DNA from: Patescibacteria group bacterium
GTDB taxonomy: Bacteria > Patescibacteriota > Patescibacteriia > UBA9570
DNA length: 39,407 nucleotides
Assembly: GCA_024277435.1 (NCBI GenBank)
Contig: JAJRVJ010000021.1
Coordinates: 1-39,407 of the forward strand
Direction: 5' to 3'
In this document: piece by piece, positions 4,261 to 39,407 of the stretch
Position numbering within the stretch: position 1 is the first letter of the stretch
Layout: every line of letters begins with the position of its first letter
The notes under the pieces: generated by a model
What the model saw: the letters and a program-made list of their open reading frames with translations, nothing else
Databases searched by the model: none
Told to the model about the DNA's origin: nothing
Program-made: the position numbers and the translations under genes

Positions 4261-5559
4261 TTATGTTCTATCAAGAACCCACAATGCTTCAATATGTGGT
4301 GTTCTAGGGAAAAAATTATAGAGTTGATAATGCACTGAAGTATATTTACCGGAAAGCAGCTGAATATCTCTTGCTTGTGTAGATAAGTTGCATGATAAGT
4401 ACAATATGCGCGGCGGGCCAACCTCTAATAATCGCTCAACAACATCCTTATGCAACCCAGCGCGTGGTGGATCAACTATTACCGTATGTTCATCGGTAAT
4501 GCTATCAAGCATATGCTCCGCCTCCTGTAGTATAGCCTTAGCGTTATCAATAGCGTTCGACTCAATGTTTTTATTGGCATAGTCTGTAGCTTCTTCATTA
4601 TTTTCTACAAGCAATACTTCCGTTACCGCTGATGCGAGTGGTAGCCCTATTGCTCCAACACCTGAATAATAATCTATCAATGGCTTATTTGGTAGCACCC
4701 ATTTAGCAATGTCATTTAATGCCATCTCGAATACCGGGATATTCACTTGAAAAAAACCAAGCAAACCAAATTGTAATTTCACGCCTCGTAAATGTGCTTC
4801 TAAATATTCTTGACCAGCGCTATGCATATGCTCCGTTGGTACGGAAGCTGGACTTTTTGGGTTTGAGAAATAAACATGAAACCCTAAGAGATCGTCCGTG
4901 AGCTCTGGATATGAATCAACGGAAATCATATTCTTCACAAACAGCGCGGCTACTGCCTTCCCTTCTCCATTACTACGAACAATGAGAGACTTCACATCAT
5001 AACGCCCAAGACCCTTTTCGTTTATCCAAGCTAAAATATATGCGGCAACAGAATTAATTACCGGCTCAGCCAACTCGGATGATTGTACTGGTATTTTATA
5101 GCGTTTACCCCGTTGAAAAAAAGCCAAATCCATTCCATCACCACGTGGATCGTCATCATCATATTCAAAAAAGCTAAATTCAATTTTATTACGATATCCA
5201 TATATTTGCTCATAATTTGCAATAATGGGTTTACTATCTGGAACCGTGAGTTTACCAATACGTTCATATGTTTCTTGAGCTACCTGCTCCTTATATCTAT
5301 TTTCCTGCTCGAAAGACATGATAGCCCAGGGACTGCTTGATAAATAGTGTGGCTCTACAGGATCTTCTCGTTGCTCTGAAGGATTTTTAATAACGGTAGC
5401 AATACCTTCGAGATGACTTTTCCGCTTTTTAGTTATCTCAACAGTAACATCTTCACCCGGTAATGCATTCCATACAAACACGGGCATACCATCATGATAC
5501 GCTAGAGCTTGCCCGCCAAATACAAGCTTATCTACATGAACATCAATAATTTTATTCAT
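4261..5559 (-). CDS. TRAM-domain RNA (uracil-5-)methyltransferase, RlmD/TrmA family
   Basis: N-terminal TRAM-like region; DYYSGVGAIGLPLA SAM motif; VDPPRAGL and LYLSCNLSTQARD catalytic motifs. Confidence 0.9.
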   Translation of the reverse strand: MNKIIDVHVDKLVFGGQALAYHDGMPVFVWNALPGEDVTVEITKKRKSHLEGIATVIKNPSEQREDPVEPHYLSSSPWAIMSFEQENRYKEQVAQETYERIGKLTVPDSKPIIANYEQIYGYRNKIEFSFFEYDDDDPRGDGMDLAFFQRGKRYKIPVQSSELAEPVINSVAAYILAWINEKGLGRYDVKSLIVRSNGEGKAVAALFVKNMISVDSYPELTDDLLGFHVYFSNPKSPASVPTEHMHSAGQEYLEAHLRGVKLQFGLLGFFQVNIPVFEMALNDIAKWVLPNKPLIDYYSGVGAIGLPLASAVTEVLLVENNEEATDYANKNIESNAIDNAKAILQEAEHMLDSITDEHTVIVDPPRAGLHKDVVERLLEVGPPRILYLSCNLSTQARDIQLLSGKYTSVHYQLYNFFPRTPHIEALWVLDRT

Positions 5560-6061
5560 GTAGATAAGAAATTATTGCTTTGCAAAATGCTGGCAAATCA
5601 TTCGGTGTGCGAGATGTTATAAGACTCCCATCTACCACCACTTCTTCATCTACATAGTTAGCCCCAGCATTACGAATATCATCAGCAATTGCATAGTAGC
5701 ACGTAGCGGTCTTCCCTTTTACAATATCAGCCGACACAGGAATCCAGGCACCATGACAAATTGATGCCACAAGCTTATCTACATCATGCATCTGCTTAAC
5801 AAAATTAATCATATCACGAGTTTTACGCATTAAGTCTGGAGCAAATCCCCCAGGTATAATTACAGCATCATATTCTAATGGCGTTACTTCCGTGATTGCT
5901 TTATGAACCTCTAACGGATAACCATACTTACCTGTATAAGTAGTTTTTTTCATGCCGATAAAATCAACTGTATACCCTTCTTCAATTAACCTAAAATAGG
6001 GATACCATACCTCTTGGTCCTGGTAAAGATCCTCAACGAGAAGTGCGATACGTTTTGACAT
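5552..6061 (-). CDS. DJ-1/PfpI family protein
   Basis: DAVIIPGGFAPDLMR and VASICHGAWIPVSA (nucleophile elbow Cys) motifs. Confidence 0.9.
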   Translation of the reverse strand: MSKRIALLVEDLYQDQEVWYPYFRLIEEGYTVDFIGMKKTTYTGKYGYPLEVHKAITEVTPLEYDAVIIPGGFAPDLMRKTRDMINFVKQMHDVDKLVASICHGAWIPVSADIVKGKTATCYYAIADDIRNAGANYVDEEVVVDGSLITSRTPNDLPAFCKAIISYLHE

Positions 6062-6109
6062 AACTATAAATAAAACAAACTTATAAGAGTAGATGCATTG
6101 TACAGCATA

Positions 6110-6424
6110 TTATAAGTGTGTAAACCAATACTTTATTTTACGTATTACCCACCAAACTAATACAAATGGCGCATTCACCATTAACCACGCTAACAGCGCC
6201 GCGACAATATTTAATACCACTACATTATCAACAAAAGCTGGCATAGTTACCAAATAATCAAATGGTGGGATTTCAAAATACAGAGCTGCAATAGAAAATC
6301 CTAGCGTTACAATCACCCATAGCACGAGGCCAGCCTTACGCAATTGCGCATAACCAAAGGGTAAGCCACTATCAGCTGAATCCGACATATTGTTTAACGG
6401 CATAATTGGCGGTAAATCTGGCAT
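6110..6424 (-). CDS. Small hypothetical membrane protein
   Basis: 104-aa ORF with two hydrophobic segments, in operon-like spacing. Confidence 0.6.
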   Translation of the reverse strand: MPDLPPIMPLNNMSDSADSGLPFGYAQLRKAGLVLWVIVTLGFSIAALYFEIPPFDYLVTMPAFVDNVVVLNIVAALLAWLMVNAPFVLVWWVIRKIKYWFTHL

Positions 6425-6427
6425 ACA

Positions 6428-6901
6428 CTATAAATTCTGAAATATACGCAAATCTCCTAATACTTCTTCCACATGTTTTTTGGGTTTTACATTTGGATAA
6501 ATTTTAGCAATGCTTCCCTCAGGATCAATTAAAAATGATGATCGCACAATACCAATAATTTCCTTCCCAAATATTTTCTTCGGCTTCCATACATCGTACA
6601 ACTCACAAACACTATGGTCACTATCTGCTAATAAAGGAAATGATAAATTATATTTATCAGCAAATTTCTTATGACTCCTCTCATCATCGGCGCTAATACC
6701 AAATACAACCGCATCAATATCAGTTAATACTGGAAGGTTATCCTGAAATGAGCAAGCTTCTGTTATGCATCCTGGTGTATCATCTTTTGGATAGAAATAT
6801 AACAACACCCACTGCCCTTGATAATCAGATAATGTATGCGCTACGCCACTCTGATCATTGAGCGTAAAATCTGGCGCTAGTTGCTTTACTGTTAAAGACA
6901 T
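6428..6901 (-). CDS. bcp: Peroxiredoxin, thioredoxin-dependent thiol peroxidase (Bcp)
   Basis: APDFTLNDQSG, FYPKDDTPGCITEACSFQD motif. Confidence 0.93.
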   Translation of the reverse strand: MSLTVKQLAPDFTLNDQSGVAHTLSDYQGQWVLLYFYPKDDTPGCITEACSFQDNLPVLTDIDAVVFGISADDERSHKKFADKYNLSFPLLADSDHSVCELYDVWKPKKIFGKEIIGIVRSSFLIDPEGSIAKIYPNVKPKKHVEEVLGDLRIFQNL

Positions 6902-6920
6902 AGTTATATATTAATTACAA

Positions 6921-7487
6921 TTATTTATTTGAATGGGGAAGAAAAAACATCAACACACCACTTAGGAATGATACCATAACCATGATAATAAATAGTACTG
7001 AAAAACTGTACGCAGTTACTATATACCCACCTAATACAGCGCCAATTGCTCCAACAAAATACGACATCGCTTCCCATACGCCCCAAACCTCACCAGCGTG
7101 TCGACTACTTTGAAAACGCGAATAGAGCGCATCAAATACCGGTGCATATATTGCCTCACCCAAACCAATAATTATTTGTACAATAAACAACTGCCAGATC
7201 GTTTCAACAAACATATATGATGCAAATCCAATCGTCATTAATACATATCCAGCTATAACTATCCGTTCACTGTGCTTAATGCGATCACTACATCTACCGG
7301 AAATTAATACGGTTAATCCAGCAACGAGCGCAAAAATACCACCAGCAATACTTGCATCCATTAAATCTCCGCCAATTTCCTCAACAAACAATGCGTAAAT
7401 AGGACCCAACATAGCCCCTGCCAATAAAATCAACGCATTGGTAAGTAATAATATTCGTAATCCAGTGTTTAATATTGTCTTAGACAT
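6921..7487 (-). CDS. Half-size MFS-like transporter (about 6 TM)
   Basis: 188-aa hydrophobic ORF; N-terminal-half MFS character (GRCSDRIKHSERIVIAGY loop 2-3-like motif). Confidence 0.65.
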   Translation of the reverse strand: MSKTILNTGLRILLLTNALILLAGAMLGPIYALFVEEIGGDLMDASIAGGIFALVAGLTVLISGRCSDRIKHSERIVIAGYVLMTIGFASYMFVETIWQLFIVQIIIGLGEAIYAPVFDALYSRFQSSRHAGEVWGVWEAMSYFVGAIGAVLGGYIVTAYSFSVLFIIMVMVSFLSGVLMFFLPHSNK

Positions 7488-25900: not shown

Positions 25901-26299
25901 CTACTCCAGGTCGAACTGCTCCAGCTCCTCCTCGGTGACCGGGATCACCAAGACGGAGGTCTTGCCGTCCGCCACCCGGTTCAGCGACCGGATGAACTCC
26001 GGGCGGCTGAGCGACCGGATGGCGAACCGCCCCTTCTGCCGCATGGGGAGCATCCCCAAACGCCCGAGGATCTCCGGGCGGGTGACGTCCCGCCTTCTCA
26101 TCTCGAGGGGGAGGGTCTCTTCGCGGCCTCCCTCATCCCCCTGGAGGCAGAGGGTGACGGTGACGGGCTGGGACGCCCGCCACTGAATGAGCAGTAGCCG
26201 GAAAATTCCGGCAAAGGAGGCCAGGCCGGTGACGGCCTCGAACCCCCCGGCCCAGAAGTTGTTAACGAAGGAGAGAACGGAAAAAATGAATTCGACCAC
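25901..26299 (-). CDS. GC-rich-island hypothetical protein (133 aa, N-terminal hydrophobic)
   Basis: GTG start at 26299 preceded by AGGAGG Shine-Dalgarno (AGGAGGCATCGTG); MVEFIFSVLSFVNNFWAGGFEAV...; GC-rich composition unlike flanks. Confidence 0.6.
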   Translation of the reverse strand: MVEFIFSVLSFVNNFWAGGFEAVTGLASFAGIFRLLLIQWRASQPVTVTLCLQGDEGGREETLPLEMRRRDVTRPEILGRLGMLPMRQKGRFAIRSLSRPEFIRSLNRVADGKTSVLVIPVTEEELEQFDLE

Positions 26300-26445
26300 G
26301 ATGCCTCCTAGGCATCCGCGCAGAGCTGGAAACATTCCAGTTGCGGGTAGAAATTGGCAACTATTTACCAACTACTATCCACAACCAATGCTCCATTGCG
26401 CTATGTACTAAACACACCCACTTACATATCTACCTTTGGAAGGGT

Positions 26446-26589
26446 GAGGCGTTTTGTGGATGTGAGTCCACAAGGTGCCTCGAACCTGGTTGATCTTGCC
26501 TCGCTCTAAATGAGCTCAAGCGGCAGCGGTGTTCAACCAATCGCTTTGCATACGTGTTTATGTCCTAGGTATGCAAGCCAGGACTTGAG
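26446..26589. other. Structured intergenic region between the two GC-island genes
   Basis: GAGGCgttTTGTGGA tgtgag TCCACAAggtGCCTC (26446-26481); TGGTTGA/TCAACCA; GCTC taaat GAGC; TTGCATAC/GTATGCAA (26546-26576); CTCAAG/CTTGAG. Confidence 0.55.
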
Positions 26590-26593
26590 TGCG

Positions 26594-27610
26594 CTACTCC
26601 TCGAATCGCTCCCGGAGGGCCGGGAGGATGCTCTCATTCCAGACGACCTCCGATCCGTGGAGGAGGAACCCCACGTTGGAGATGAGGCCGGCATTCTTGC
26701 CGGTCTCAGCGCCCTCGGGAACGAGGTCCCGGAGGTCAATCTCCTCCTGGAGATGCCGAGGCACCGCCAGGGAGAACATCTCGCCCCCGTCGCGGGACAG
26801 GAAGCCCCGCTTGCGGACCACCGTCACGCGGCAGCCGGGCCGCGCCTCCATCTGCCGGGCCAGGATGGTCAGGTCGAAGCGCTGCGCTCCGACCGTGTCC
26901 ACGAACCACACGCCCGAGACGGGCTGGGTGGCGGTGCCGGCGAGGCGGGTGGCCTCCGAGACCTGAGCCTCGTAGACCAAGACCTTCTCCTGGAACCAGG
27001 AGAGAGCCTCCTGGTCGCCCTGGCTCGCGGCCACGAACTGGCCGAAGAGCTCGGCCTTGGCGGCCTCGCTCACCTCCGGCCGCTTCGGGTTGAAGGGGGG
27101 CAGAGTGCCGAGGCACCGGACGGCGAGCCAGCCGAGCTCGCTGAGGCTCTCGGCGGACTGGGCCGGCCGGACGTCGAAGACGGCGGCATCGGCGTCCAAC
27201 TCGGGGTAGGTCACCCCGAGTGCCTTCATAGCGGCCGTGAGGCCGTCCATGTCGGGGTCCGCCACGATGACGGTCCCGGAGGAGGCAAACTCTCCGGCCT
27301 CCACCAGGAATGAACAGGCCGGGAACTCGCTGCGGAGCTCCAGGTGGGAGCCGGTGCCCTGCAACAGGGCCTCCAGCTCGAGGAAGGCCTCGGGGTTGCG
27401 GCCTTCTCCCCGATGGTGGTCGCGGACGACCACCTCCTGCCCGCGGCCCTTCATGGCCGCCGCGATCTCAACCAAGGTCGGGGTGGCGGCCGTGTCGAGG
27501 AAGACCACGCGAGTGGCCTCCTCGGTGGCGAAGAGGACGGCGTCGCGGTCGGCGGCGCCGAAGAACTTTGAGAAAAAAACGGCGCGCGCGGCGATGGTCA
27601 AGTTCAGCAT
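26594..27610 (-). CDS. Atypical DHH-family phosphoesterase-like protein encoded in GC-rich island
   Basis: AAGGAG Shine-Dalgarno upstream of ATG; VVFLDTA, VVVRDHH and VIVADPDMDGLTAAMKALG motifs. Confidence 0.55.
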   Translation of the reverse strand: MLNLTIAARAVFFSKFFGAADRDAVLFATEEATRVVFLDTAATPTLVEIAAAMKGRGQEVVVRDHHRGEGRNPEAFLELEALLQGTGSHLELRSEFPACSFLVEAGEFASSGTVIVADPDMDGLTAAMKALGVTYPELDADAAVFDVRPAQSAESLSELGWLAVRCLGTLPPFNPKRPEVSEAAKAELFGQFVAASQGDQEALSWFQEKVLVYEAQVSEATRLAGTATQPVSGVWFVDTVGAQRFDLTILARQMEARPGCRVTVVRKRGFLSRDGGEMFSLAVPRHLQEEIDLRDLVPEGAETGKNAGLISNVGFLLHGSEVVWNESILPALRERFEE

Positions 27611-27703
27611 TTGGTTTTGACTCCTTATTTGCCTTTGTGGTGAGGAATGTACTGACTGGTCGAGGGAATGGCTACCCTATAGTGACCGGCGTTCAGTACC
27701 GTA

Positions 27704-27781
27704 GAAATCGTATACTCTTGTCATTGAAGACAGGCTATTTGCCAGAGTAGAAGACGTAGCATGCTACGTCTTTACGATTTC
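27704..27781. ncRNA. Candidate structured RNA leader or folded-DNA element: nested branched structure
   Basis: GAAATCGTA(27704-27712)/TACGATTTC(27773-27781) closes two arms: ACTCT/AGAGT (27714-27718/27744-27748) holding TGTC ATTGAA GACA and GGC TATTT GCC, plus 22-bp perfect palindrome AAGACGTAGCATGCTACGTCTT (27751-27772). Confidence 0.5.
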
Positions 27782-27916
27782 GATAACATTGAAATAGCTG
27801 GGAACATGACGGACTAGAGTTTCAACTCGTACCGTTCATATGCCATGCATATTTCAAAACTATCCTCACTTCAACACTTCACCCAGAATTAGGTGCAGTG
27901 TCTTCCAAAGATAGAT

Positions 27917-28147
27917 ATGTTTTCAATGTACGAAGTCTATTCAGAGCAATATCTGCTCAAGCCAGACAAGTGGAGGAGAAAGGTTCAATCAGTAAATCTT
28001 TGTGCGGAAAAATTTGCACGAAGGTTCACCGATGACGATACAGCTGTAGAGAGTATCGTCCCATCACCCTTGAAAATCAAATGTTGTGATGTTGATATTA
28101 GTGTGCTTATGTGTACGTTTCCGCATGAGGCTCTCTACGGCCGTTAG
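27917..28147 (+). CDS. Possible small ORF of unknown function
   Basis: MFSMYEVYSEQYLLKPDKWRRK...; contains GACGATAC/GTATCGTC inverted repeat (28034-28041/28053-28060), so may be structured non-coding instead. Confidence 0.25.
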   Translation: MFSMYEVYSEQYLLKPDKWRRKVQSVNLCAEKFARRFTDDDTAVESIVPSPLKIKCCDVDISVLMCTFPHEALYGR

Positions 28148-29190: not shown

Positions 29191-30348
29191 CTAAGATTCC
29201 TCGAGTGGTTGCAGTTGGCTGGTCTCTAACATTCCCTGAAGGATAGGTAACACGTCGTTCGTGCTAAACATTGAACAAACGCTCGTGTCGGCGTCGGCAA
29301 GTTCAACCGTGGGAGTGATACTAAAGACGTAGAATACTTCACCCTTACGAGCAACGGTGTATTCATTACCAATTGTTGAAAAAGTTTCGTCCGCCCAGTC
29401 AAGTATTAGTAATGGTTGTTGGCTGGAGTTCTCTTGCAACAACTCTACGCGTGTCGATAAAACATTCTCTTCTACCTCTATGTTGAAGTGAATATTTGTG
29501 ATCTTGCTTGAAAACAAAAGTCGGCTTGACGAGGTCTCTAGGAGATAAGTACTTTCCGTGACCATCAGCAGGTTGGCAGGATAATAAAAGGATAAGCCAC
29601 TAGCTTCATCGCTAAAGAGTTCCCAATCATTTTTGTCCTTTAGACTATCTAAATCAAATTGCAATGAGGAACACTCGCTGTTTGGCTGTTCGTTCAGGGG
29701 CTCGCTGGTCACTGGTGCAGGCCAAAGGTAATTGGCCATCCAAATGAACCTAGATCCAACCGTGAACGAGCAGAGCAGAAAGCCGACGATTAATCCGACA
29801 GTTACAATTTTAAAGGCGGCGCTTTTGGTTGGAGAACTTATTGGCGAGAGCTTTCTCTGACCACGCCCAATCAATGTGCCGAGCTCGGTAACTACTAGAC
29901 TTACTGCAGTCAACCCAATGATCGGTATGCCCACCGCAAATGCAAACACGCCCAATGTTCCAACTATATTTTCTGGATACCTTAAGAATACTGGAAACAC
30001 AGAGACAATAACAGTTACATAACAGACAATGAATAGCCCAAAGTAAAGCAAAAATAGCTGAAGCCAATGAGATTTCTTTTTCAGGCCATAGAGATAGCCT
30101 GATAGTAACCACAGACACGCGTAGGCAGCCAATCCGAACCCAAAAATAAAATACAGCTGCTCTGGAAAATGATTCAAGCGCTGAAAAAAGAAGTTTGCAA
30201 GCATATCAATAAGCTCTGATTGTACTCGCGGCCTGGCTGTGGTCGATTCCATCACCAGCAATCCAATGAGGAATACCATGTACGCAGATACTATTGTATA
30301 GCCATGGATGATATAGCTGAACCGATGGAGCTTAAGTGATCGAGACAT
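29191..30348 (-). CDS. Hypothetical multi-TM membrane protein with C-terminal soluble domain
   Basis: 385-aa ORF, several TM segments, then SGLSFYYPANLLMVTESTYLLETSSSRLLF. Confidence 0.7.
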   Translation of the reverse strand: MSRSLKLHRFSYIIHGYTIVSAYMVFLIGLLVMESTTARPRVQSELIDMLANFFFQRLNHFPEQLYFIFGFGLAAYACLWLLSGYLYGLKKKSHWLQLFLLYFGLFIVCYVTVIVSVFPVFLRYPENIVGTLGVFAFAVGIPIIGLTAVSLVVTELGTLIGRGQRKLSPISSPTKSAAFKIVTVGLIVGFLLCSFTVGSRFIWMANYLWPAPVTSEPLNEQPNSECSSLQFDLDSLKDKNDWELFSDEASGLSFYYPANLLMVTESTYLLETSSSRLLFSSKITNIHFNIEVEENVLSTRVELLQENSSQQPLLILDWADETFSTIGNEYTVARKGEVFYVFSITPTVELADADTSVCSMFSTNDVLPILQGMLETSQLQPLEES

Positions 30349-30480
30349 TTGTTCAGGATAATCAATGGTGAAAGTATTGTTTGGCTGGCCGTTGTGGTCC
30401 AGAACCTAGACCTCACAAGCGCCTTTCGGTCATTCTATCAGGTTACCAACAAGGTTGCTAGGTCATAGAGTGAGACAAAT

Positions 30481-30510
30481 GAGACACTATAAAAGAGATT
30501 TTAGTGTCTC
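30481..30510. repeat. Inverted repeat (9-bp arms) at edge of defence region
   Basis: GAGACACTA taaaagagattt TAGTGTCTC. Confidence 0.6.
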
Positions 30511-30588
30511 AGGTTAGAATTGTGTATAGCCTGGACTTTGAGTAGGTGTATATGGCGTAATATACGTCTAAGCCATTAACAAAAAACT

Positions 30589-31104
30589 ATGGTAAAAATT
30601 TCAGACGAACGGCTCGATGAATTTATTGAGTTAAGCACGGAAAAAAATATTGAGTATAAGGATCGACAAGAGGCGTACGAAGCAGCAAATAATCTGGTGG
30701 GATTCTTTGAGCTTCTGCATAAAATTGACCACCAAGAACAGATGAGGAAAAGACGACTTGAAAATGAGCCTAACGGATTTCCAATCGAAGGCAGTGGACG
30801 CAATTGTAGGCTCTGTAGACAATCCGTTCAAGAAGATATGTGGTATGACAAATATGGAATGAAATGTCTGGACTGTCAGAAGGCTGTTGATGAAGGTGAT
30901 GTTCCAGTTGAAATTTTTGATGATGAAGATTCCTACATTACTTCCGACGAGCTTTCATGCAAACATGGGATTCGTCACCAAACAATAAAGAAGCATATTC
31001 ACACTGGAGAACTTTTGCCGAGTTACATTCGTGGCAATAGAAAGCTGACTATACTTATAAGAAAAGAGAATCCTAATTTGGATCAAATATTAAGCCTTAA
31101 ATGA
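30589..31104 (+). CDS. Hypothetical Zn-ribbon plus helix-turn-helix-like protein
   Basis: NCRLCRQSVQEDMWYDKYGMKCLDCQ zinc-binding pattern; ITSDELSCKHGIRHQTIKKHIHTGELLPSYIRGNRKL HTH-like. Confidence 0.65.
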   Translation: MVKISDERLDEFIELSTEKNIEYKDRQEAYEAANNLVGFFELLHKIDHQEQMRKRRLENEPNGFPIEGSGRNCRLCRQSVQEDMWYDKYGMKCLDCQKAVDEGDVPVEIFDDEDSYITSDELSCKHGIRHQTIKKHIHTGELLPSYIRGNRKLTILIRKENPNLDQILSLK

Positions 31105-31739
31105 TTACGGATTCTATCTTGTGGCATTTCTGCCCTCAGCTGCCATAAGACTGTTGCGTGGCAATTCCTTAATTTTTTACCACTTTTGCAAGGGCAATCA
31201 AAATGCCCTTTCAATCTATTTGTATGTATGTCATTTATGAATTCCTGAACGATGGTTGGATTCTCTATTCCTAAACGCTTACCGTAATAATCCCTATAGC
31301 CATCATATCCATGTCTATGCTCACTAAACGGCCAATGACCCTTTAGTCTAAAATAGTCTGCGGCTAATAATAATCCAGTAACTTCATTCTCCAAATATTC
31401 AATAAGGCGACACTCACTCTTACGCGACCAATACTCAGAAGGCAACACTGGGCAAAGTGTACCGTCACCATTTGTGTGCCATTCAGGAGTTCTAGGGATT
31501 TTGCCCTGAAGTTCATTAATTGCTGGTAAATCTTCCGGGTAATTGTCAGGTAAAATTATTTCTAACAAATATTCATTGATAGTTGCTTTATTCGACTTAA
31601 CTGGGAACATTCCCACAATGATTACTTTTTCATTTGAAATCTGAATTCTCAAAGTCGGAAATTTTTTAATCAAATCCCTTTGTAAGTTACTGAATTTTGT
31701 TGGTTCTTTCTGGTACCACTTCCTGGTTTTAACATGCAT
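31083..31739 (-). CDS. CBASS E2-like protein with C-terminal SEC-C-like motif
   Basis: E2-like LPDNYPEDLPAINEL...WHTNGDGTLCPVLPSEYW (candidate active-site Cys); C-terminal FDCPCKSGKKLRNCH resembles SEC-C; operon with CD-NTase. Confidence 0.8.
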   Translation of the reverse strand: MHVKTRKWYQKEPTKFSNLQRDLIKKFPTLRIQISNEKVIIVGMFPVKSNKATINEYLLEIILPDNYPEDLPAINELQGKIPRTPEWHTNGDGTLCPVLPSEYWSRKSECRLIEYLENEVTGLLLAADYFRLKGHWPFSEHRHGYDGYRDYYGKRLGIENPTIVQEFINDIHTNRLKGHFDCPCKSGKKLRNCHATVLWQLRAEMPQDRIRNHLRLNI

Positions 31740-32601
31740 AAGGTACAGATTTATGTGGAGTTGCGTTCACCGCTGAAGCCATATCTTCTTCTGTCGATTG
31801 TATATTAACTTCACCGAATATCGCACTCCAATTACCTGTCTCGATCAGACTATAGCACTGTTGAGCAGCATTCTTAACATGTGACTTAACTGAATCGTTC
31901 CATAGGATACTCAAATCATTGTTTGGGTTAGCTGGATCTTCGACAAAAAGAGAATCGATATTCTCTGACATAGAAACCATCAAATGAGCAAGCCTTTTTT
32001 CTAGAGCTTCGCCTTTCATGCCGTCGAGTAATTTGACAATCATTAACTCTAGTACGAAAGTTTTTATTGGCACCTGCCACCGGAAAGCCCATAATTTCAT
32101 AAGAGAGATGGTATCCTGTTGGCCACTATCCAAAATGATTTTGATGTGAATGTCAGGGTTTGTTTTAAGCCGTTCTTTTTCTCCTTCACTTTGATACAAA
32201 AATGCATCTACTTGGGAGTCATCAAAAAACCTTCCGGGAACTACGTCGATATGCAAATTAGATTTTTCTTTACTTTGAATTTTTAATGCTGAGCGCTTCT
32301 CCTCTATAAAGTAGTCATCGCTCAGTGACTCTTTAACATTTTCAAAAATTTCCTTTAGCGTTTCGCCAGCACTGTTATTTTCACTTTGAAAGTAGCACAA
32401 TATGTCGAGATCATATTTATCCCGAATCATGGTTCCCTTTGCATATGATCCGCCTACTCGCAATACAGGAGCATCTGAATAAGCTGCTTGTAACACTCGC
32501 GTAACTGCTCCTTTATTATTCTCCAACTCCTTTGACTCAATACTATGTTGATCAATTAAATGAGTATTAAGTACCTGTTTTAAATATTCGTTTGCGCTCA
32601 T
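31729..32601 (-). CDS. CD-NTase (cGAS/DncV-like nucleotidyltransferase) of CBASS
   Basis: GGSYAKGTMIRDKYDLDILCYF (GGS...DxD), third acidic region LHIDVVPGRFF; ends ...SVPYAC. Confidence 0.88.
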   Translation of the reverse strand: MSANEYLKQVLNTHLIDQHSIESKELENNKGAVTRVLQAAYSDAPVLRVGGSYAKGTMIRDKYDLDILCYFQSENNSAGETLKEIFENVKESLSDDYFIEEKRSALKIQSKEKSNLHIDVVPGRFFDDSQVDAFLYQSEGEKERLKTNPDIHIKIILDSGQQDTISLMKLWAFRWQVPIKTFVLELMIVKLLDGMKGEALEKRLAHLMVSMSENIDSLFVEDPANPNNDLSILWNDSVKSHVKNAAQQCYSLIETGNWSAIFGEVNIQSTEEDMASAVNATPHKSVPYAC

Positions 32602-32604
32602 AAA

Positions 32605-33759
32605 TTATATAACTAACTTTTTAATAAAACCCCCTCTATTACGCATGTAATCATACATAACTAATTTTGGATGAACTTTCTGTAGCAAATCGAATCCTAG
32701 CGTAACAGCAATTGCTGCAGGCACTGCGGGAAAAACATGGAGACTTTTTACATCTGGATGTTCTCGAATAAGTTTTTCGAGAACATCCCTGTATACGCTT
32801 CTAAAAGATTCCAAGTCTGTGACACTTTTCAACAGCTCTCTACCGGGAGTCATATTACTCGAGCTGATTTCATAGATATAAAAACTATCATCTGCAACGT
32901 TAGTATATCCAGATTCATTAACTTTACCACTTACCGACAACACCAGCGCTACTTTTCCCTTATTACTACCTTTTTGTACATTTTCAACTTTAAATTTCAC
33001 ACCTGTGCCGCGCTTAGTCCATTGCCAAGGTTTTAAATGATTCCTGCTTTTGTTATAGAAATGTGTCTTCACCTGATTACTCAACTGACTTCCTAAAAAA
33101 GTAAGTAAATAAATAGGGCCAATAGCAAAAATTGAAACACTTTGTGCTTGGTCATCTTTTACTTTACGTTGAAAATCAATGATTGAATTTTTTATCGTTT
33201 CCCGAGCTGTTTCAAGCCCCGACGCTGTTTCGCAATCTATATTGGCTAGTTGAATATCATTTGCAGTATCATTACATTTCCATAGCGGTGCGATGGCCTC
33301 TCGAACCGATGGCTCCGATATCACATCAGCTTGATTACTAACGGTAGCGGCCATTTTTAATACGTGACTTGAGTCTTGCTCACCGGCATCTGTTTGTTTT
33401 TGAATCCGATCTTCATGAATTTTCTTATAGCTACGCAATTTAGCAACAGAAAAGTCTTGTGGTCGAACCTTGTCAATTTCGTGATGATCTTCCTTGCAAA
33501 GGAGAATAAGGTTATCAAGCGAATCAATTTCATAATCCTTCTTTGGCCTACCCTTGGCCTTTCCTCGAGGGCCATTTTTACTAAACGCGTAAATATGGCC
33601 CATATCAGCAAAATTACCAGCATCACCTGTGATGTGATGCTTTAGAAGATTCTTATTGCATCCAAAAAATTCACAACGTCCAGCTGTCAATCCGAATAAC
33701 AACTTAGCTTCCTTGTGACTATTTCGTGATATTAATAATACATTCTTTTTCTGTGACAT
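32605..33759 (-). CDS. cap5: HNH-SAVED effector nuclease (Cap5-like)
   Basis: N-terminal HNH CEFFGCNKNLLKHH...GHIYAF...NLILLCKEDHHEID; C-terminal SAVED-type LHVFPAVPAAIAVTLGFDLL. Start at MSQKKN. Confidence 0.88.
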   Translation of the reverse strand: MSQKKNVLLISRNSHKEAKLLFGLTAGRCEFFGCNKNLLKHHITGDAGNFADMGHIYAFSKNGPRGKAKGRPKKDYEIDSLDNLILLCKEDHHEIDKVRPQDFSVAKLRSYKKIHEDRIQKQTDAGEQDSSHVLKMAATVSNQADVISEPSVREAIAPLWKCNDTANDIQLANIDCETASGLETARETIKNSIIDFQRKVKDDQAQSVSIFAIGPIYLLTFLGSQLSNQVKTHFYNKSRNHLKPWQWTKRGTGVKFKVENVQKGSNKGKVALVLSVSGKVNESGYTNVADDSFYIYEISSSNMTPGRELLKSVTDLESFRSVYRDVLEKLIREHPDVKSLHVFPAVPAAIAVTLGFDLLQKVHPKLVMYDYMRNRGGFIKKLVI

Positions 33760-33771
33760 ACTTCTATTCAA

Positions 33772-34413
33772 CTATTTCTTAATAACATCAATCACCAAAC
33801 CATTGATCATAAAATCCCTATAATCTGCTTCATGTATATAGATTGGAGACTGTTCTTTTGTGGACTCGGAAAGCAGTGCGTATCGATTATGCTTTCTTTG
33901 ATTTACAAATTTCTTTATATTCGCTGCACCATCAATGACAGAAAGAACATACGAATTATCACTTGGGACAGCTGTGGACTCTTGGACTATCACATAATCA
34001 CCATCCTCAATCGACTTACCATTTACATGAGCAGTGTTCATTGATTCACCAATTGCACGAATAGCAAAGAGCTTCCCATCTCCGGAAGACTTCACCATTG
34101 AAGGAGACAAATTCAGATAACCATCAACCTGCTCATCGGCAAACTCAAGCGCATCTCCACAATTCGCTGTGCCTAAAATTGGTATTGAAATAAAAGCTGT
34201 GTTTTTCTCAGCATTCGCGCCAGCAGGAACTATTGAACCAGTTTTCTTACTCCCAGCGAGGTATCCATCAATGATAAGCTTCTCAACATGGTATTTGATC
34301 AATTGAATCTTTTCAGTGGACTCTGCAATCCTCTCGGCTATTTCAGCATAGGTTAAACGTGCCAAGTTCTTCTTGTGCGCGAGTTCGAGGATTTTCTTCT
34401 GTATACTGTGCAT
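33772..34413 (-). CDS. LexA-like S24 autoproteolytic transcriptional regulator
   Basis: N-terminal LexA-like winged helix; candidate cleavage site ANCGDALEFADEQ; AIGESMN (Ser) and YVLSVIDGAANIKKF (Lys). Confidence 0.88.
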   Translation of the reverse strand: MHSIQKKILELAHKKNLARLTYAEIAERIAESTEKIQLIKYHVEKLIIDGYLAGSKKTGSIVPAGANAEKNTAFISIPILGTANCGDALEFADEQVDGYLNLSPSMVKSSGDGKLFAIRAIGESMNTAHVNGKSIEDGDYVIVQESTAVPSDNSYVLSVIDGAANIKKFVNQRKHNRYALLSESTKEQSPIYIHEADYRDFMINGLVIDVIKK

Positions 34414-34457
34414 AATCTATGTAAAAAATGAATCTTTTACTTTTCTTTTATATTCTG

Positions 34458-34480
34458 GTACTATGGTACTCTATTGAGTA
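34458..34480. promoter_or_regulatory. Candidate operator between divergent LexA-like gene and phage gene
   Basis: GTAC tatg GTAC (34458-34469) overlapping TACTC tatt GAGTA (34467-34480) in the 86-bp divergent intergenic region. Confidence 0.45.
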
Positions 34481-34499
34481 ATACGTGTCAATATAGACT

Positions 34500-35348
34500 A
34501 TGAATTCACAAGCCCAGCTATTAACAGAGCTCAAAAGATACGGCATTGTCACAAGCAGTAGTGTTCTTAGCGCTTTCAAGAAAGCGAAGTTAATACTCCC
34601 CGATCAAGACAATGCGTCCATTGCTGTGGCACATGACTACATAAATCAACACATAAAACCCGAATACCAGCCACTATTTTTGTTTGAACAATATATTCAG
34701 GGTGGAGAGGATATTGCTGAGGTTTTTAAAAAGGATATAGATTCAATACACGAGACATTGAAACATATCAGAGACACTCTTGCTTTCATTGATAATGTGA
34801 ACAGTGTATGCGAGAAAGCCGATGGACGCATTGAACGGGTATTGATTGATAGCAAATCAGAGCAATATTCACAAAAAGAACTGAAACAAGATCAGAGGGC
34901 TGCGCGAGAAAGGCAGATCAGTGACTATGTAATTCCAGATATCAAAGAATTGCTATCAACGAGCAACATAACCATTGATGATACGAAGCATTGGCAATCA
35001 GAGTTTGCATACTTCGGAAAACGCCACGACCAAACAAAAGACTTCTTTGGTTATATGGAGTGCATTCCTTTGCAGGTTCGACAGCGCGCGCATGGAATCT
35101 TCAAATTGGTGATGTATTATTATGACCTGTCATATGATTTGGAATGGGTCATGCGAACACTTGGAGAGGCTCCTCCCTATCTACACACATTAATCACAAA
35201 CAAGCCGTACAGGCGTGTATGCGTATACTGTGACGAAGAATACGAACCGTCACGGACGGATGCAAAAAACTGCGGAAAACCCAAATGCCAAAAGGCTTAC
35301 AAGACACACCATAAGCGAATCCAACGCAAAAGAGGGATTTACTCATAG
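34500..35348 (+). CDS. Hypothetical phage-associated protein with C-terminal Zn-ribbon
   Basis: 282-aa ORF; C-terminal CVYCDEEYEPSRTDAKNCGKPKCQKAYKTHHKRIQRKRG. Confidence 0.7.
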   Translation: MNSQAQLLTELKRYGIVTSSSVLSAFKKAKLILPDQDNASIAVAHDYINQHIKPEYQPLFLFEQYIQGGEDIAEVFKKDIDSIHETLKHIRDTLAFIDNVNSVCEKADGRIERVLIDSKSEQYSQKELKQDQRAARERQISDYVIPDIKELLSTSNITIDDTKHWQSEFAYFGKRHDQTKDFFGYMECIPLQVRQRAHGIFKLVMYYYDLSYDLEWVMRTLGEAPPYLHTLITNKPYRRVCVYCDEEYEPSRTDAKNCGKPKCQKAYKTHHKRIQRKRGIYS

Positions 35349-35376
35349 CGGAACTTTCCGGAACTTTTCAAAATAG

Positions 35377-35414
35377 AATCAGACATATGCTTAGCTGTAT
35401 ATGTCTGATTTTTT
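35377..35414 (+). terminator. Rho-independent terminator
   Basis: AATCAGACATAT gcttagctgt ATATGTCTGATT followed by TTTT. Confidence 0.85.
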
Positions 35415-35425
35415 AATAACGCAAT

Positions 35426-36697
35426 ATGACGACACAAATACAAATCGTTCAGGTCGACGTAAACGACCTCAAAGCCGCGGAGTACAATCCGCGTCGATGG
35501 CCAGATGCTGCCATTGCCAACCTCACTGAAAGTATTAAGCGCTATGGGCTCGTAGATCCCCTACTAGTCAACTCTGCGCCCAATCGGAAGAATACCCTCA
35601 TAGGTGGACATTTCAGATTGTCTGTATCGAAGCAACTGAACTATACGACAGTGCCAGTTGTATACATCGATATTCCTGACATCAAAAAAGAAAAAGAGCT
35701 TAACCTCCGTCTCAACGCCAACCTCGGTGAATGGGATTATGAGCTACTCAAAGAGTTCGACATCGAGCTACTGCTTGACATTGGCTTTGATGACAGTGAC
35801 CTCTCAGCCATGTGGGACGACGTGCTTGATGTCGAGGATGACAATTTTGATACAGAGGTAGCGATTAAGGAGGCGCAAACAACCAGCATCACTGAAGGTG
35901 ATCTGTTTAAGCTTGGCAAACATCGACTCATCTGTGGAGATAGTACAAATTCAGCAGTAATCAAATGCCTCATAGATGGCAATACCATTCAAATGGTCTA
36001 CTCAGACCCACCCTACAACATTGGAATGGACTACAGCAAAGGCGTAAGCACTTCTGGCAAATACGGAGGCACCAAAGTACAAGATAATAAATCACTTTCT
36101 GACTACGCAATCTTTCTCACTAAAACAATGGAAGCCGCGCTTGCTGTCAGTGACGAATCTGCACACTACTTTTACTGGTGCGATGGACAGTACATCGGAC
36201 TGGTACAACAGCTCTATCGGACGCTTGGTATTGGCAATAAACGCGTCTGTTTGTGGATTAAGAATAATCACAACATGACACCGCAAATTGCCTTCAACAA
36301 AATGTACGAGCCGTGTGTGTATGGCACACGCGGTAAACCATATCTTGCACCAATAAAAAACCTGAACGAAATACTCAACCAAGAGGTCGGCACAGGGAAT
36401 CGCGCCATTGACGACGTGCAAGACCTCATCAACATTTGGCTCGAAAAACGACTGCCTGGCCATGAATATGAGCACCCAACAGAGAAACCAGCCACCCTAC
36501 ATGAAAAGCCACTGCGCCGCTGTACAAAGCCAGGTGACCGAGTACTCGATAGTTTCGGGGGATCTGGTTCCACTCTCATCGCCTGCGAGCAACTCGGTCG
36601 CATCGCATATCTATCTGAACTCGATCCAATATTTTGCCAATTAATCATCAACCGATATGAACAACACACCGGAAATAAAGTCACGAAACTCAGTTAA
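35426..36697 (+). CDS. ParB/Srx-like domain fused to DNA methyltransferase (N6-A/N4-C type)
   Basis: N-terminal ParB-like region (AAEYNPRRW...GHFRLSV); SDPPYNIGMDYS catalytic motif; SFGGSGSTLIACEQLGR SAM motif. Confidence 0.92.
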   Translation: MTTQIQIVQVDVNDLKAAEYNPRRWPDAAIANLTESIKRYGLVDPLLVNSAPNRKNTLIGGHFRLSVSKQLNYTTVPVVYIDIPDIKKEKELNLRLNANLGEWDYELLKEFDIELLLDIGFDDSDLSAMWDDVLDVEDDNFDTEVAIKEAQTTSITEGDLFKLGKHRLICGDSTNSAVIKCLIDGNTIQMVYSDPPYNIGMDYSKGVSTSGKYGGTKVQDNKSLSDYAIFLTKTMEAALAVSDESAHYFYWCDGQYIGLVQQLYRTLGIGNKRVCLWIKNNHNMTPQIAFNKMYEPCVYGTRGKPYLAPIKNLNEILNQEVGTGNRAIDDVQDLINIWLEKRLPGHEYEHPTEKPATLHEKPLRRCTKPGDRVLDSFGGSGSTLIACEQLGRIAYLSELDPIFCQLIINRYEQHTGNKVTKLS

Positions 36698-37466
36698 CCT
36701 TGGCGACATCTATCAACTTGGCGAGCATCGCTTGCTCTGCGGAGATTCTACATCCGTATCGAATGTGAAAACACTACTCGATGCAGAAGCCATTGACCTC
36801 GTACTAACCGACCCACCATACGGCGTATCATATGTAGAAAGTAAACAGAACTTCAACCTCCTGGCAAAGTCTAAGCGAATCCAAAACGACCAGAAACAAT
36901 CCGACTCTGAATATCAAGAATTTAGTGAACGGTGGCTGAGTGCAATACTCCCCTCTCTGACAAAAAAGAATAGCATTTACATTTTCAACTCCGACAAAAT
37001 GCTGTTCGCTCTTCGTAAAGCCATGGATACCCAGAAAGTAAAATTCTCACAGCTGCTCATCTGGGCAAAGCATCAGGCTGTCGTTGGACGCCTTGACTAC
37101 CTGCCACAACATGAACTCATTGTGTATGGCTGGTATGGCACCCATAAATTCCGCAAAAGCAAAGACAAGTCGCTTCTGTTCTGCCCAAAACCAAATCGAA
37201 GCAAGTTACACCCAACCATGAAACCCATAGCACTACTGCGCCGGCTCATTCTCAACAGCTCAGAGATCGGTAGCATCGTCTACGACCCCTTTGGCGGATC
37301 CGGCAGCACGCTCATGGCAGCAGAACAAACAAAACGACGTTGCTATACCATCGAGCTCGATCCAGAATATTGCGTCACTATTATCAAACGTTGGGAGCAA
37401 CTCACTAAAAAACAATCAAGATTAATCACTAATATTTATGGCAAAGAAAAAGACCAAGCCGACTAA
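36657..37466 (+). CDS. DNA methyltransferase (N6-A/N4-C type)
   Basis: LTDPPYGVSYV; YDPFGGSGSTLMAAEQTKRRCYTIELDPEYC. Confidence 0.92.
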   Translation: MNNTPEIKSRNSVNLGDIYQLGEHRLLCGDSTSVSNVKTLLDAEAIDLVLTDPPYGVSYVESKQNFNLLAKSKRIQNDQKQSDSEYQEFSERWLSAILPSLTKKNSIYIFNSDKMLFALRKAMDTQKVKFSQLLIWAKHQAVVGRLDYLPQHELIVYGWYGTHKFRKSKDKSLLFCPKPNRSKLHPTMKPIALLRRLILNSSEIGSIVYDPFGGSGSTLMAAEQTKRRCYTIELDPEYCVTIIKRWEQLTKKQSRLITNIYGKEKDQAD

Positions 37467-37878
37467 AACAATACAGCGACAACAAAAACAAAAAGAAGCA
37501 CTGATTGCTATTCTTAAAAAGACTCCAATCATTCAGGTGGCCTGTCAAAAGGCTGGAATCGGCCGTGCAACATATTACCGCTGGCTCAAAGAAGATATGG
37601 AATTTGCAGATGAAGCACAAACTGCTCTTGATGCCGGAGTGGGCATTGTAAATGACATGGCAGAGTCGCAGCTGATTTCCGCAATCAAAGATAAACACAT
37701 GACTGCTATCATCTTCTGGCTGAAGCATCACCATGGAGCATATGCAACGCGTGTTGAGTTGTCTGCCAACGCATCAATAGACATCCCATCGCTCGATGAA
37801 GAACAACAAAAAGTGGTTCAAGCAGCGCTAGAGCAAGCAAAGCTACTCACTGCAGGTGATAACGATGAAATTCTATGA
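37438..37878 (+). CDS. terS: Phage terminase small subunit-like protein (HTH)
   Basis: VACQKAGIGRATYYRWLKEDMEFADEA HTH; stop overlaps terL start (ATGA). Confidence 0.75.
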   Translation: MAKKKTKPTKTIQRQQKQKEALIAILKKTPIIQVACQKAGIGRATYYRWLKEDMEFADEAQTALDAGVGIVNDMAESQLISAIKDKHMTAIIFWLKHHHGAYATRVELSANASIDIPSLDEEQQKVVQAALEQAKLLTAGDNDEIL

Positions 37879-39407
37879 ACGATGCCGAACTTTTTAAAAC
37901 CATTGCACATAATCAAGCGGTGCGAAAAAACATCACTTCAGAATCCCACTGCTGGTTCTTCCATGTGTACTTGAGTCGATATATCACTTACGAAACCGCA
38001 CCGTTTCACCGCGAGATGCTACAACTAACAGAAGCACAAAAACAGATGCTCTTGTTTATGGCATTTCGTGGCTCCGGTAAATCCACCATTTTGTCACTCG
38101 CCTATCCATTGTGGTCACTTCTTGGAAATAAACGAAAACGATTTATTTTGATTCTGAGTCAAACACAATACCAAGCACAACTCTTGCTGCAACACATTAA
38201 AACAGAACTGGAAGAAAACGACCTGCTAAAAAAAGACTTTGGTCCGTTTGTCAGTAAAAACACACAGTGGAGCTCGGACACCATTGTAATACCACGCTTC
38301 AATGCCAAAATCATGGCAGCCTCTACTGAGCAAAGTATACGCGGCATCCGCCATGCGGAAGTACGACCTGATCTGATTATTTGTGACGACATTGAGGATC
38401 TAAGTTCTGTAAAAACCATGGAATCTCGCAATAAAACTTTTCGTTGGTTAATGGGCGAAATTATTCCAGCTGGTGACCGCGATACACAGGTAGTGGTTCT
38501 TGGTAATCTACTACATGAAGACTCGCTACTGATGCGGTTAGAAGAAATGATCGATGAAAATAAGATTGATGGAATTGTAAGAAGGTACCCCATTACCGAA
38601 AATAACATTCCACTATGGCTGGGCAAATTTCCAAATATGAACGCTATTGCTCAAGAGCAAAGGAAGATTGGGAATCAAACAAATTGGAACCGCGAGTATG
38701 AACTAAAGATCGTTCCCGAAGATGGCCAAGTCATTACCTATAATGATATTCAGTACTACGAAGAAATTCCAGAATTATTTGAACCAGATGAAGACCGATC
38801 GCATGAAGATGTACATCGGATAGTGCGTATGGAGCGACTCTGTACCGGGGTAGACTTAGCAATCAGCAAGCGCGAGACAGCTGACTATACGGCAATGGTT
38901 TCTGTGCAAGCCATGAGCTTCCAACGCCAAGAAATGAAATTTTTTGTCCTTCCTAATCCGCTGAATAAACGATTGGATTTTGGGCAAACTATTCATGCTG
39001 CCAAAGAATTGAGCTTGAAGCTTGGAAAAAACTACCACTATACTGAAATATTTGTAGAACAAGTTGGATACCAGCTCAGCGCTATTGAACAAATGGAAAC
39101 GGAAGGCTTACCTGCAAAGGGTATCACTGTTGCCGGATCAGACAAACGAGCAAGATTGAATATCGTTGCTCCACTGATTAAAAGTGGAAAAATACTGTTT
39201 CCAAAAAAAGGTTGCGAAAACTTGATTGCTCAAATTGTAGGATTTGGTGTTGAAAAACATGATGACCTTATGGATGCTTTCACTCTTGTCATGATGCAAA
39301 TGATGAATAAACCGCCACAACAGCACATAGGCGATATGCCAAGTCGACATAATGAAGACATCATCTATACCAAGTCAAATCCGTATGGAGACTACAAGCC
39401 TGGAGCA
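37875..39407 (+). CDS. terL: Phage terminase large subunit (truncated by window end; absent from ORF track)
   Basis: Own translation: MNDAELFKTIAHNQAVRKN...LLFMAFRGSGKSTILSLAYPLW (Walker A), LIICDDIEDL (Walker B), CTGVDLAISK and HDDLMDAF (RNase H-like nuclease); open to the last base. Confidence 0.92.
   Translation, partial: MNDAELFKTIAHNQAVRKNITSESHCWFFHVYLSRYITYETAPFHREMLQLTEAQKQMLLFMAFRGSGKSTILSLAYPLWSLLGNKRKRFILILSQTQYQAQLLLQHIKTELEENDLLKKDFGPFVSKNTQWSSDTIVIPRFNAKIMAASTEQSIRGIRHAEVRPDLIICDDIEDLSSVKTMESRNKTFRWLMGEIIPAGDRDTQVVVLGNLLHEDSLLMRLEEMIDENKIDGIVRRYPITENNIPLWLGKFPNMNAIAQEQRKIGNQTNWNREYELKIVPEDGQVITYNDIQYYEEIPELFEPDEDRSHEDVHRIVRMERLCTGVDLAISKRETADYTAMVSVQAMSFQRQEMKFFVLPNPLNKRLDFGQTIHAAKELSLKLGKNYHYTEIFVEQVGYQLSAIEQMETEGLPAKGITVAGSDKRARLNIVAPLIKSGKILFPKKGCENLIAQIVGFGVEKHDDLMDAFTLVMMQMMNKPPQQHIGDMPSRHNEDIIYTKSNPYGDYKPGA

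Follow-up and report, generated by a model that had tools for sequence, protein, structure and literature searches.

A LexA-like S24 gene heads a putative short type II CBASS operon on a satellite-like element of a Patescibacteria-type genome

The 39,407-nucleotide contig JAJRVJ010000021.1 of a Patescibacteria group bacterium (assembly GCA_024277435.1), called the window here in its full length, carries at positions 31083-34413 four packed minus-strand open reading frames (ORFs) coding for a LexA-like regulator of the S24 family, an HNH-SAVED nuclease of the Cap5 type, a CD-NTase and an E2-like protein. We favour the reading, with a probability of about two thirds, that this operon is a short type II cyclic oligonucleotide-based antiphage signalling system (CBASS), that it is cargo of a mobile defence element and stands behind a LexA-like autoproteolytic repressor of its own, and that it works as proposed below. 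Immune systems that kill their own cell need silencing until they are required. Three kinds of DNA-damage controllers have been described for such operons, and the LexA/S24 proteins are a candidate fourth kind made of one gene only, which, if true, would couple immunity directly to RecA and the SOS response. The odds look slightly better than even for a wider proposition, namely that immune operons (CBASS, Pycsar, TIR, caspase, Schlafen, restriction-modification (R-M) and PemK) are governed by one more, so far undescribed family of DNA-damage controllers, the LexA/S24 autoproteolytic repressors, which were recruited several times to CBASS and, in Patescibacteria, often reside on new capsid-less elements made of terminase, ParB-methylase and serine recombinase genes with a defence-hotspot cargo slot. 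Loci, genomes and contigs are designated by L-, G- and C-numbers, respectively; G000 is the genome of the window and WIN the window locus.

The operon and its LexA-like regulator

From the promoter-proximal to the distal end the four ORFs are joined by junctions of 0 (S24/Cap5), 3 (Cap5/CD-NTase) and -11 nucleotides (nt; CD-NTase/E2). Their coordinates reproduce those of an earlier annotation made from the letters of the window (the original prediction), and its assignment of the four genes is borne out by family matches in Pfam and PADLOC. The first gene (33772-34413, minus strand) codes for a 213-residue protein with a Peptidase_S24 match (Pfam, E=1.2e-13). Alignment with E. coli LexA (A84-G85/S119/K156) places its cleavage bond at Cys85-Gly86 and its dyad at Ser124/Lys167. 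An AlphaFold2 model of moderate confidence (predicted local distance difference test score, pLDDT, of 75; built from seven sequences) has an N-terminal winged helix-turn-helix (HTH) with elements H3-15, H22-28, H33-48, E52-55 and E60-63, and aligns along its full length with crystal structures of LexA bound to DNA (3jso, E=7.6e-12). Cleavage bond, dyad and modelled winged HTH indicate a repressor of the LexA/S24 autoproteolytic type, for which RecA-stimulated cleavage is predicted. That it is the housekeeping LexA of the genome is ruled out by its score of 54.9 bits against the equivalog TIGR00498, which does not reach the cut-off of 110.95, and by a separate canonical LexA of 215 residues encoded on contig C4. 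No gene for a HExxH metalloprotease of the CapP type is present in or beside the operon, Pfam detects no WYL domain as in CapW/BrxR in the operon proteins, and no relatives of the S24 protein were found in IMG/VR and phage records. Genes elsewhere in Patescibacteria (L230 at 5464-7044, G162:C15 and G243:C9) code for S24 fusions of about 520-560 residues, double the usual length.

The Cap5-type HNH-SAVED effector (388 residues; 32605-33771, minus strand) has strong hits to SAVED in Pfam (E=7.3e-34) and to the CBASS endonuclease of PADLOC (E=4e-109). It starts at a TTG that abuts the S24 stop codon or, alternatively, at an ATG at 33759. Comparison with the PDB retrieved relatives of the SAVED domain, with 8ysq as top match, and the HNH residues H59/N87/H96 are kept relative to homologues. 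The CD-NTase (290 residues; 31729-32601, minus strand) matches SMODS over the Pfam cut-off and the PADLOC cyclase (E=5e-65), with an active site G51-S52..D64-x-D66..D119 kept across 27 relatives. Its C-terminal tail is flexible and ends in ..KSVPYAC; most of 27 aligned cyclases have a 'PW' motif near the end of the flexible tail, consistent with conjugation of the tail by E2. The E2-like conjugating enzyme (218 residues; 31083-31739, minus strand; PADLOC E2, E=1e-46) has a SEC-C zinc motif at its C-terminus, and its catalytic residues H88, C96 and H143 are invariant in 12 relatives together with C182, C184 and C193 of SEC-C. Catalytic motifs, whose loss would have spoken against the original prediction, are intact in S24, Cap5, CD-NTase and E2. 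Pfam and PADLOC detected no E1 or JAB gene beside the operon, where the flanking genes are S24 and a zinc-HTH gene. Judged from these family matches, the system is a short type II CBASS with Cap5 as putative nuclease-sensor, a CD-NTase and an E2, and the single-E2 type without E1 and JAB had been recognised correctly.

In the intergenic gap before S24, the sequence TTGACA-17-TACCAT (34463-34491, minus strand) is the top consensus match within 30300-35500 (10/12); promoter-like sites in total show no excess over the shuffled expectation, so it is a candidate promoter only. The overlapping dyads GGTACTATGGTAC and TACTCTATTGAGTA over its -10 region (34457-34480, unstranded) are a candidate operator, whose exact 15-mer GGTACTATGGTACTC has a single occurrence in the genome.

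LexA/S24 genes heading immune operons

Cap5 gave no matches to the genome contigs as a single-sequence query; a scan of these contigs with a Cap5 alignment yielded 80 loci. An S24/LexA gene lies directly upstream of cap5 and co-directional with it in five of the 80, belonging to Ca. Uhrbacteria (L030), BRC1/Sumerlaeota (L033), Verrucomicrobiota (L039), Ignavibacteria (L060) and Paceibacterota (L067). At 15 of the 28 most comparable Cap5 loci the place of the regulator is taken by an HTH gene and/or a HExxH metalloprotease (motif read by eye). The LexA/S24 gene therefore appears to occupy the place where other lineages use CapH+CapP, a single autoproteolytic protein seemingly standing in for that pair. 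Two further arrangements were seen among the Cap5 loci. L035 (309-4686), whose contig was assigned by binning to Hadesarchaea archaeon DG-33, combines a Cap5-CDN-E2 CBASS with CapH/CapP-like genes; upstream of cap5 at L041, L044 and L050 there is a divergent trio including a sigma-factor-like protein and a HExxH protease, which may be yet another kind of regulator for single-E2 CBASS.

A second survey was meant to avoid picking loci by their immune genes: the S24 protein alone was compared with 380 genomes of the phylum, and the neighbourhoods of the best matches were read. The S24 subfamily obtained (27 members, made of the survey matches plus WIN, L030, L217, L222 and L225) keeps the cleavage bond in all members and the Ser-Lys dyad in 26. 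Defence genes identified by PADLOC or Pfam are headed by 11 of the 27. Four of these are CBASS genes (WIN; L030; L268, with a transmembrane (TM) effector, SMODS and E2; L279, with SMODS-AGS_C and SLATT_4), five are R-M operons (L266, L271, L277, L278 and L284), one is a caspase gene (L217) and one a Schlafen gene with a 2TM effector (L222). PemK toxins are headed by three more members (L265, L269 and L274), and the downstream genes of L225, L270 and L283 are of no clear type. The S24 gene stands directly before PemK/MazF at L265 (5990-7086), L269 (6027-7143) and L274 (6038-7122), possibly forming a toxin module in which a LexA-like partner replaces the classical antitoxin. L217 (10441-12411) has in a row S24, a 123-residue protein with no family match, perhaps TIR-like, and a caspase-like peptidase, a trio resembling TIR-caspase systems of the Thoeris type.

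The LexA/S24 tree contains in addition a clade B (support 100/99, the bootstrap being not fully settled) that is distinct from housekeeping LexA proteins, several of whose genes adjoin recA or dinB. All six members of clade B head immune operons, which are CBASS in four phyla (L033, L039, L060 and L067), TIR at L213 and Pycsar at L221; the neighbours of housekeeping LexA are the sole control for the linkage to defence in clade B and in the subfamily, and the background rate of defence genes does not enter the comparison. At least four independent gains or losses are needed to place the CBASS linkage on the tree, so that the LexA/S24-CBASS pairing would have arisen or been exchanged repeatedly. 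Regarding common inheritance of the WIN and L030 cassettes, the window CD-NTase sits on a long branch and its grouping with L030 is not rejected (approximately unbiased test, p-AU 0.44); the window Cap5, CD-NTase and E2 are each slightly closer to lineages other than L030. The LexA-like gene that the original prediction placed at the head of CBASS represents a real and recurrent linkage, found in the S24/LexA-Cap5 loci, in clade B and in the S24 subfamily. Loss of this linkage in relatives would have counted against it; S24-CBASS is kept in five related loci and in two more reached through the S24 query.

The element carrying the operon

Divergent from S24, the plus strand of the window codes for a 282-residue protein with no confident family match (34500-35348), followed by the backbone of the element. 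The backbone consists of a ParB-N6/N4-methyltransferase (35426-36697; Pfam ParB_N and N6_N4_Mtase) that is 56% identical to its L030 homologue, a second DNA methyltransferase in conserved order (36657-37466; Pfam, 2e-34), the small terminase subunit TerS (37438-37878; PHROGs) and the 511-residue large subunit TerL (37875-39407; phrog_38, 7e-68; Terminase_6C). The ParB-methylase is matched in 44 of the 380 genomes of the phylum (E<=1e-40). Contig C26 of the same genome has an exact 141-nt overlap with the end of the window, supplies the TerL stop codon and continues with a 443-residue large serine recombinase and then type I R-M; no portal or capsid genes lie downstream of TerL. A homologous recombinase is found in the available stretch of 15 of 20 other backbone copies, mostly shortly past TerL. 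Phage_portal (PF04860), the sole portal or capsid model run genome-wide, has no match in the window genome and matches in one of the 22 backbone genomes (that of the window and 21 others), about 97 kb from the block there. No attachment-site repeats of 12 nt or more were found between the two contig ends. Contigs of the metagenome-assembled genome may have been misbinned, but a chimera is disfavoured here by the exact overlap of the two contigs and by other genomes having the same gene order.

The recombinase and type I R-M past TerL, together with the lack of a PF04860 match in the genome, rule out an ordinary prophage boundary, and the 'phage boundary' of the original prediction needs correction accordingly. 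Its setting in the Candidate Phyla Radiation (CPR) is supported by kinship within a phylum whose genomes measure 0.5-1.6 Mb and by the element being shared with named Ca. Uhrbacteria. Saccharibacteria were considered and rejected, as the 16S gene (5' end missing) has five mismatches to the TM7-305 probe site.

The side divergent to the backbone is a cargo slot whose contents differ among copies: CBASS (WIN, L030), Pycsar (L204, L221), Hachiman (L216), a CD-NTase with type II R-M (L207), TIR (L213), caspase (L217), a lone E2 with HEPN (L206) and Schlafen/TM (L222). One Uhrbacteria genome has two copies of the element, L030 with CBASS and L222 with Schlafen/TM, which have sister S24 genes and the same backbone. 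In G277 an HNH-SAVED/CD-NTase pair is found immediately behind an element-type recombinase. The far end of the slot in the window is occupied by a zinc-finger and HTH protein (30589-31104, plus strand; weak HTH_17 match) that has a homologue at the same place in L030 (31% identity) and others bounding the slot at several further elements; it is a candidate recombination directionality factor. Going by its genes, the vehicle is a capsid-less, satellite-like mobile defence element that recurs in Patescibacteria with swapped cargo. The SAVED domain occurs in about 1% of the sampled genomes of this Patescibacteria-type phylum; the element, small and equipped with a recombinase and a defence slot, suggests how such streamlined genomes could gain and swap defence. 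The full terminase and yet no portal gene found (PF04860) raise the question of how the element moves.

Several other observations were made on these elements and in the window. The type I R-M right behind the recombinase (L233, G000:C26, 1606-9871) comprises HsdR, two AAA-like ORFs, HsdS and HsdM, and an Uhrbacteria element has a like R-M arrangement behind its recombinase (L223, 7544-13371). L206 (9989-13572) contains a LexA-like gene, a PDC-M50A membrane protein, a lone SEC-C E2 and HEPN, and no CD-NTase was seen there; it is possibly an E2 immune system without cyclase. Tandem pairs of large terminase genes occur within one element at L209 (4389-7582) and L138 (2405-5564). An island of 2 kb at 26000-28000 of the window, with about 60% G+C against 38-45% in the genome, looks recently acquired; its ORF at 26594-27610 (minus strand, 338 residues) is weakly like DHH phosphoesterases.

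Proposed working, alternatives and known systems

We propose that the S24 protein keeps expression of its own operon down by binding the dyads that cover the one promoter upstream. When phages infect or DNA is damaged in another way, single-stranded DNA (ssDNA) would arise, and RecA-ssDNA filaments would trigger cleavage of S24 at Cys85-Gly86 by Ser124/Lys167, leading to derepression of the operon. E2 would conjugate or prime the CD-NTase through its C-terminal tail; upon infection the CD-NTase would produce a cyclic oligonucleotide that binds to SAVED, and the HNH domain would degrade DNA, causing cell death or arrest ahead of phage release. The original prediction invoked control by DNA damage or by the prophage state. 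Damage control is retained as an expectation from LexA homology. We consider a dedicated controller of the immune operon more likely than prophage-state control in the sense of lambda cI, because the element is not an ordinary prophage.

Other roles can be envisaged for the S24 protein. It could be a CI-like repressor of the divergent ParB-methylase-terminase genes, the CBASS being co-transcribed cargo like rexAB with lambda cI, and damage would then induce element and defence operon together. Such a role is in line with the divergent orientation of S24 and backbone in WIN, L030, L206, L213, L217, L221 and L222, and with sister S24 genes having differing cargo in one genome. However, most backbone copies have no S24 at this place, which excludes a universal backbone repressor; no backbone was seen around many of the S24 relatives that head immune or toxin genes, and clade B heads CBASS in L033, L039, L060 and L067 apart from the backbone. 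We regard the CI-like role as rather doubtful. Direct pairing of subfamily members with PemK/MazF, whose upstream partner is normally an antitoxin, could also hint at an antitoxin-like or UmuD-like partner that keeps Cap5 or CD-NTase inactive and is no transcription factor, but the model has a winged HTH before the S24 domain and its whole-length matches are DNA-bound LexA, making this very improbable. We give as little credit to the cassette being a functionless remnant of a decaying element: the terminase without capsid genes nearby and the existence of solitary S24 copies would agree with decay, whereas the four ORFs are full-length with their catalytic residues, the TerL ORF is complete, and recombinase and R-M are intact.

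The hypothesis of a dedicated immune repressor has its own difficulties. Ten of the 27 subfamily members are solitary, which implies that the role of S24 is not confined to immune regulation. A search for a shared operator found none; the dyads of the window do not recur in relatives, and the operator is a guess. The hexamer TGTCAA, present upstream of 14 of the 27 subfamily genes versus 1.9 expected, does not occur upstream of the window S24, and its enrichment could reflect divergent promoters (a divergent -35).

The window S24 protein shares fold and cleavage chemistry with housekeeping LexA (TIGR00498). In lambda cI-rexAB and other repressor-linked prophage exclusion genes, an S24-type repressor is followed by abortive-infection cargo and is divergent to early-type genes. 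The window S24 likewise precedes cargo of the abortive-infection type and is divergent to early-type genes of the element; unlike lambda, the window genome has no PF04860 portal, and the cargo swaps among CBASS, TIR, Pycsar, Schlafen and others. Phage satellites such as phage-inducible chromosomal islands (PICIs) and PICI-like elements (PLEs) are similarly small integrative elements with packaging and integration genes and anti-phage cargo, and a large serine recombinase is described for PLE 1 (PMC6002521). The window element differs in its full TerS+TerL set and ParB-methylases, and no helper phage is known for it. A groundwater survey describes CPR bacteria with many prophages and dense defence.

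DNA-damage regulators adjoining immune operons comprise CapW/BrxR, CapH+CapP and CapK+CapS (a 2026 paper, PMC13373217; PMC9122588). CapW, CapP and CapK are reported to respond to DNA damage through ssDNA binding (PMC13373217, PMC9122588), and CapH+CapP responds to ssDNA (PMC13373217). Neither 'LexA' nor 'S24' occurs in PMC13373217, and no report of a LexA-headed CBASS was found among open-licence full texts (LexA with CBASS; S24 with anti-phage). The window resembles these systems in having a regulator that heads or adjoins diverse immune operons, and differs from them by a single LexA-like autoproteolytic protein with no HExxH protease, WYL domain or kinase. For short type II CBASS, work cited in PMC11153139 has proposed that the lone E2 carries out cyclase-cyclase conjugation. 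The window operon shares with this type the CD-NTase, the E2 with catalytic Cys and the SAVED effector; what sets it apart is its LexA/S24 head and its setting in a Patescibacteria-type genome, where it lies on a terminase/recombinase element.

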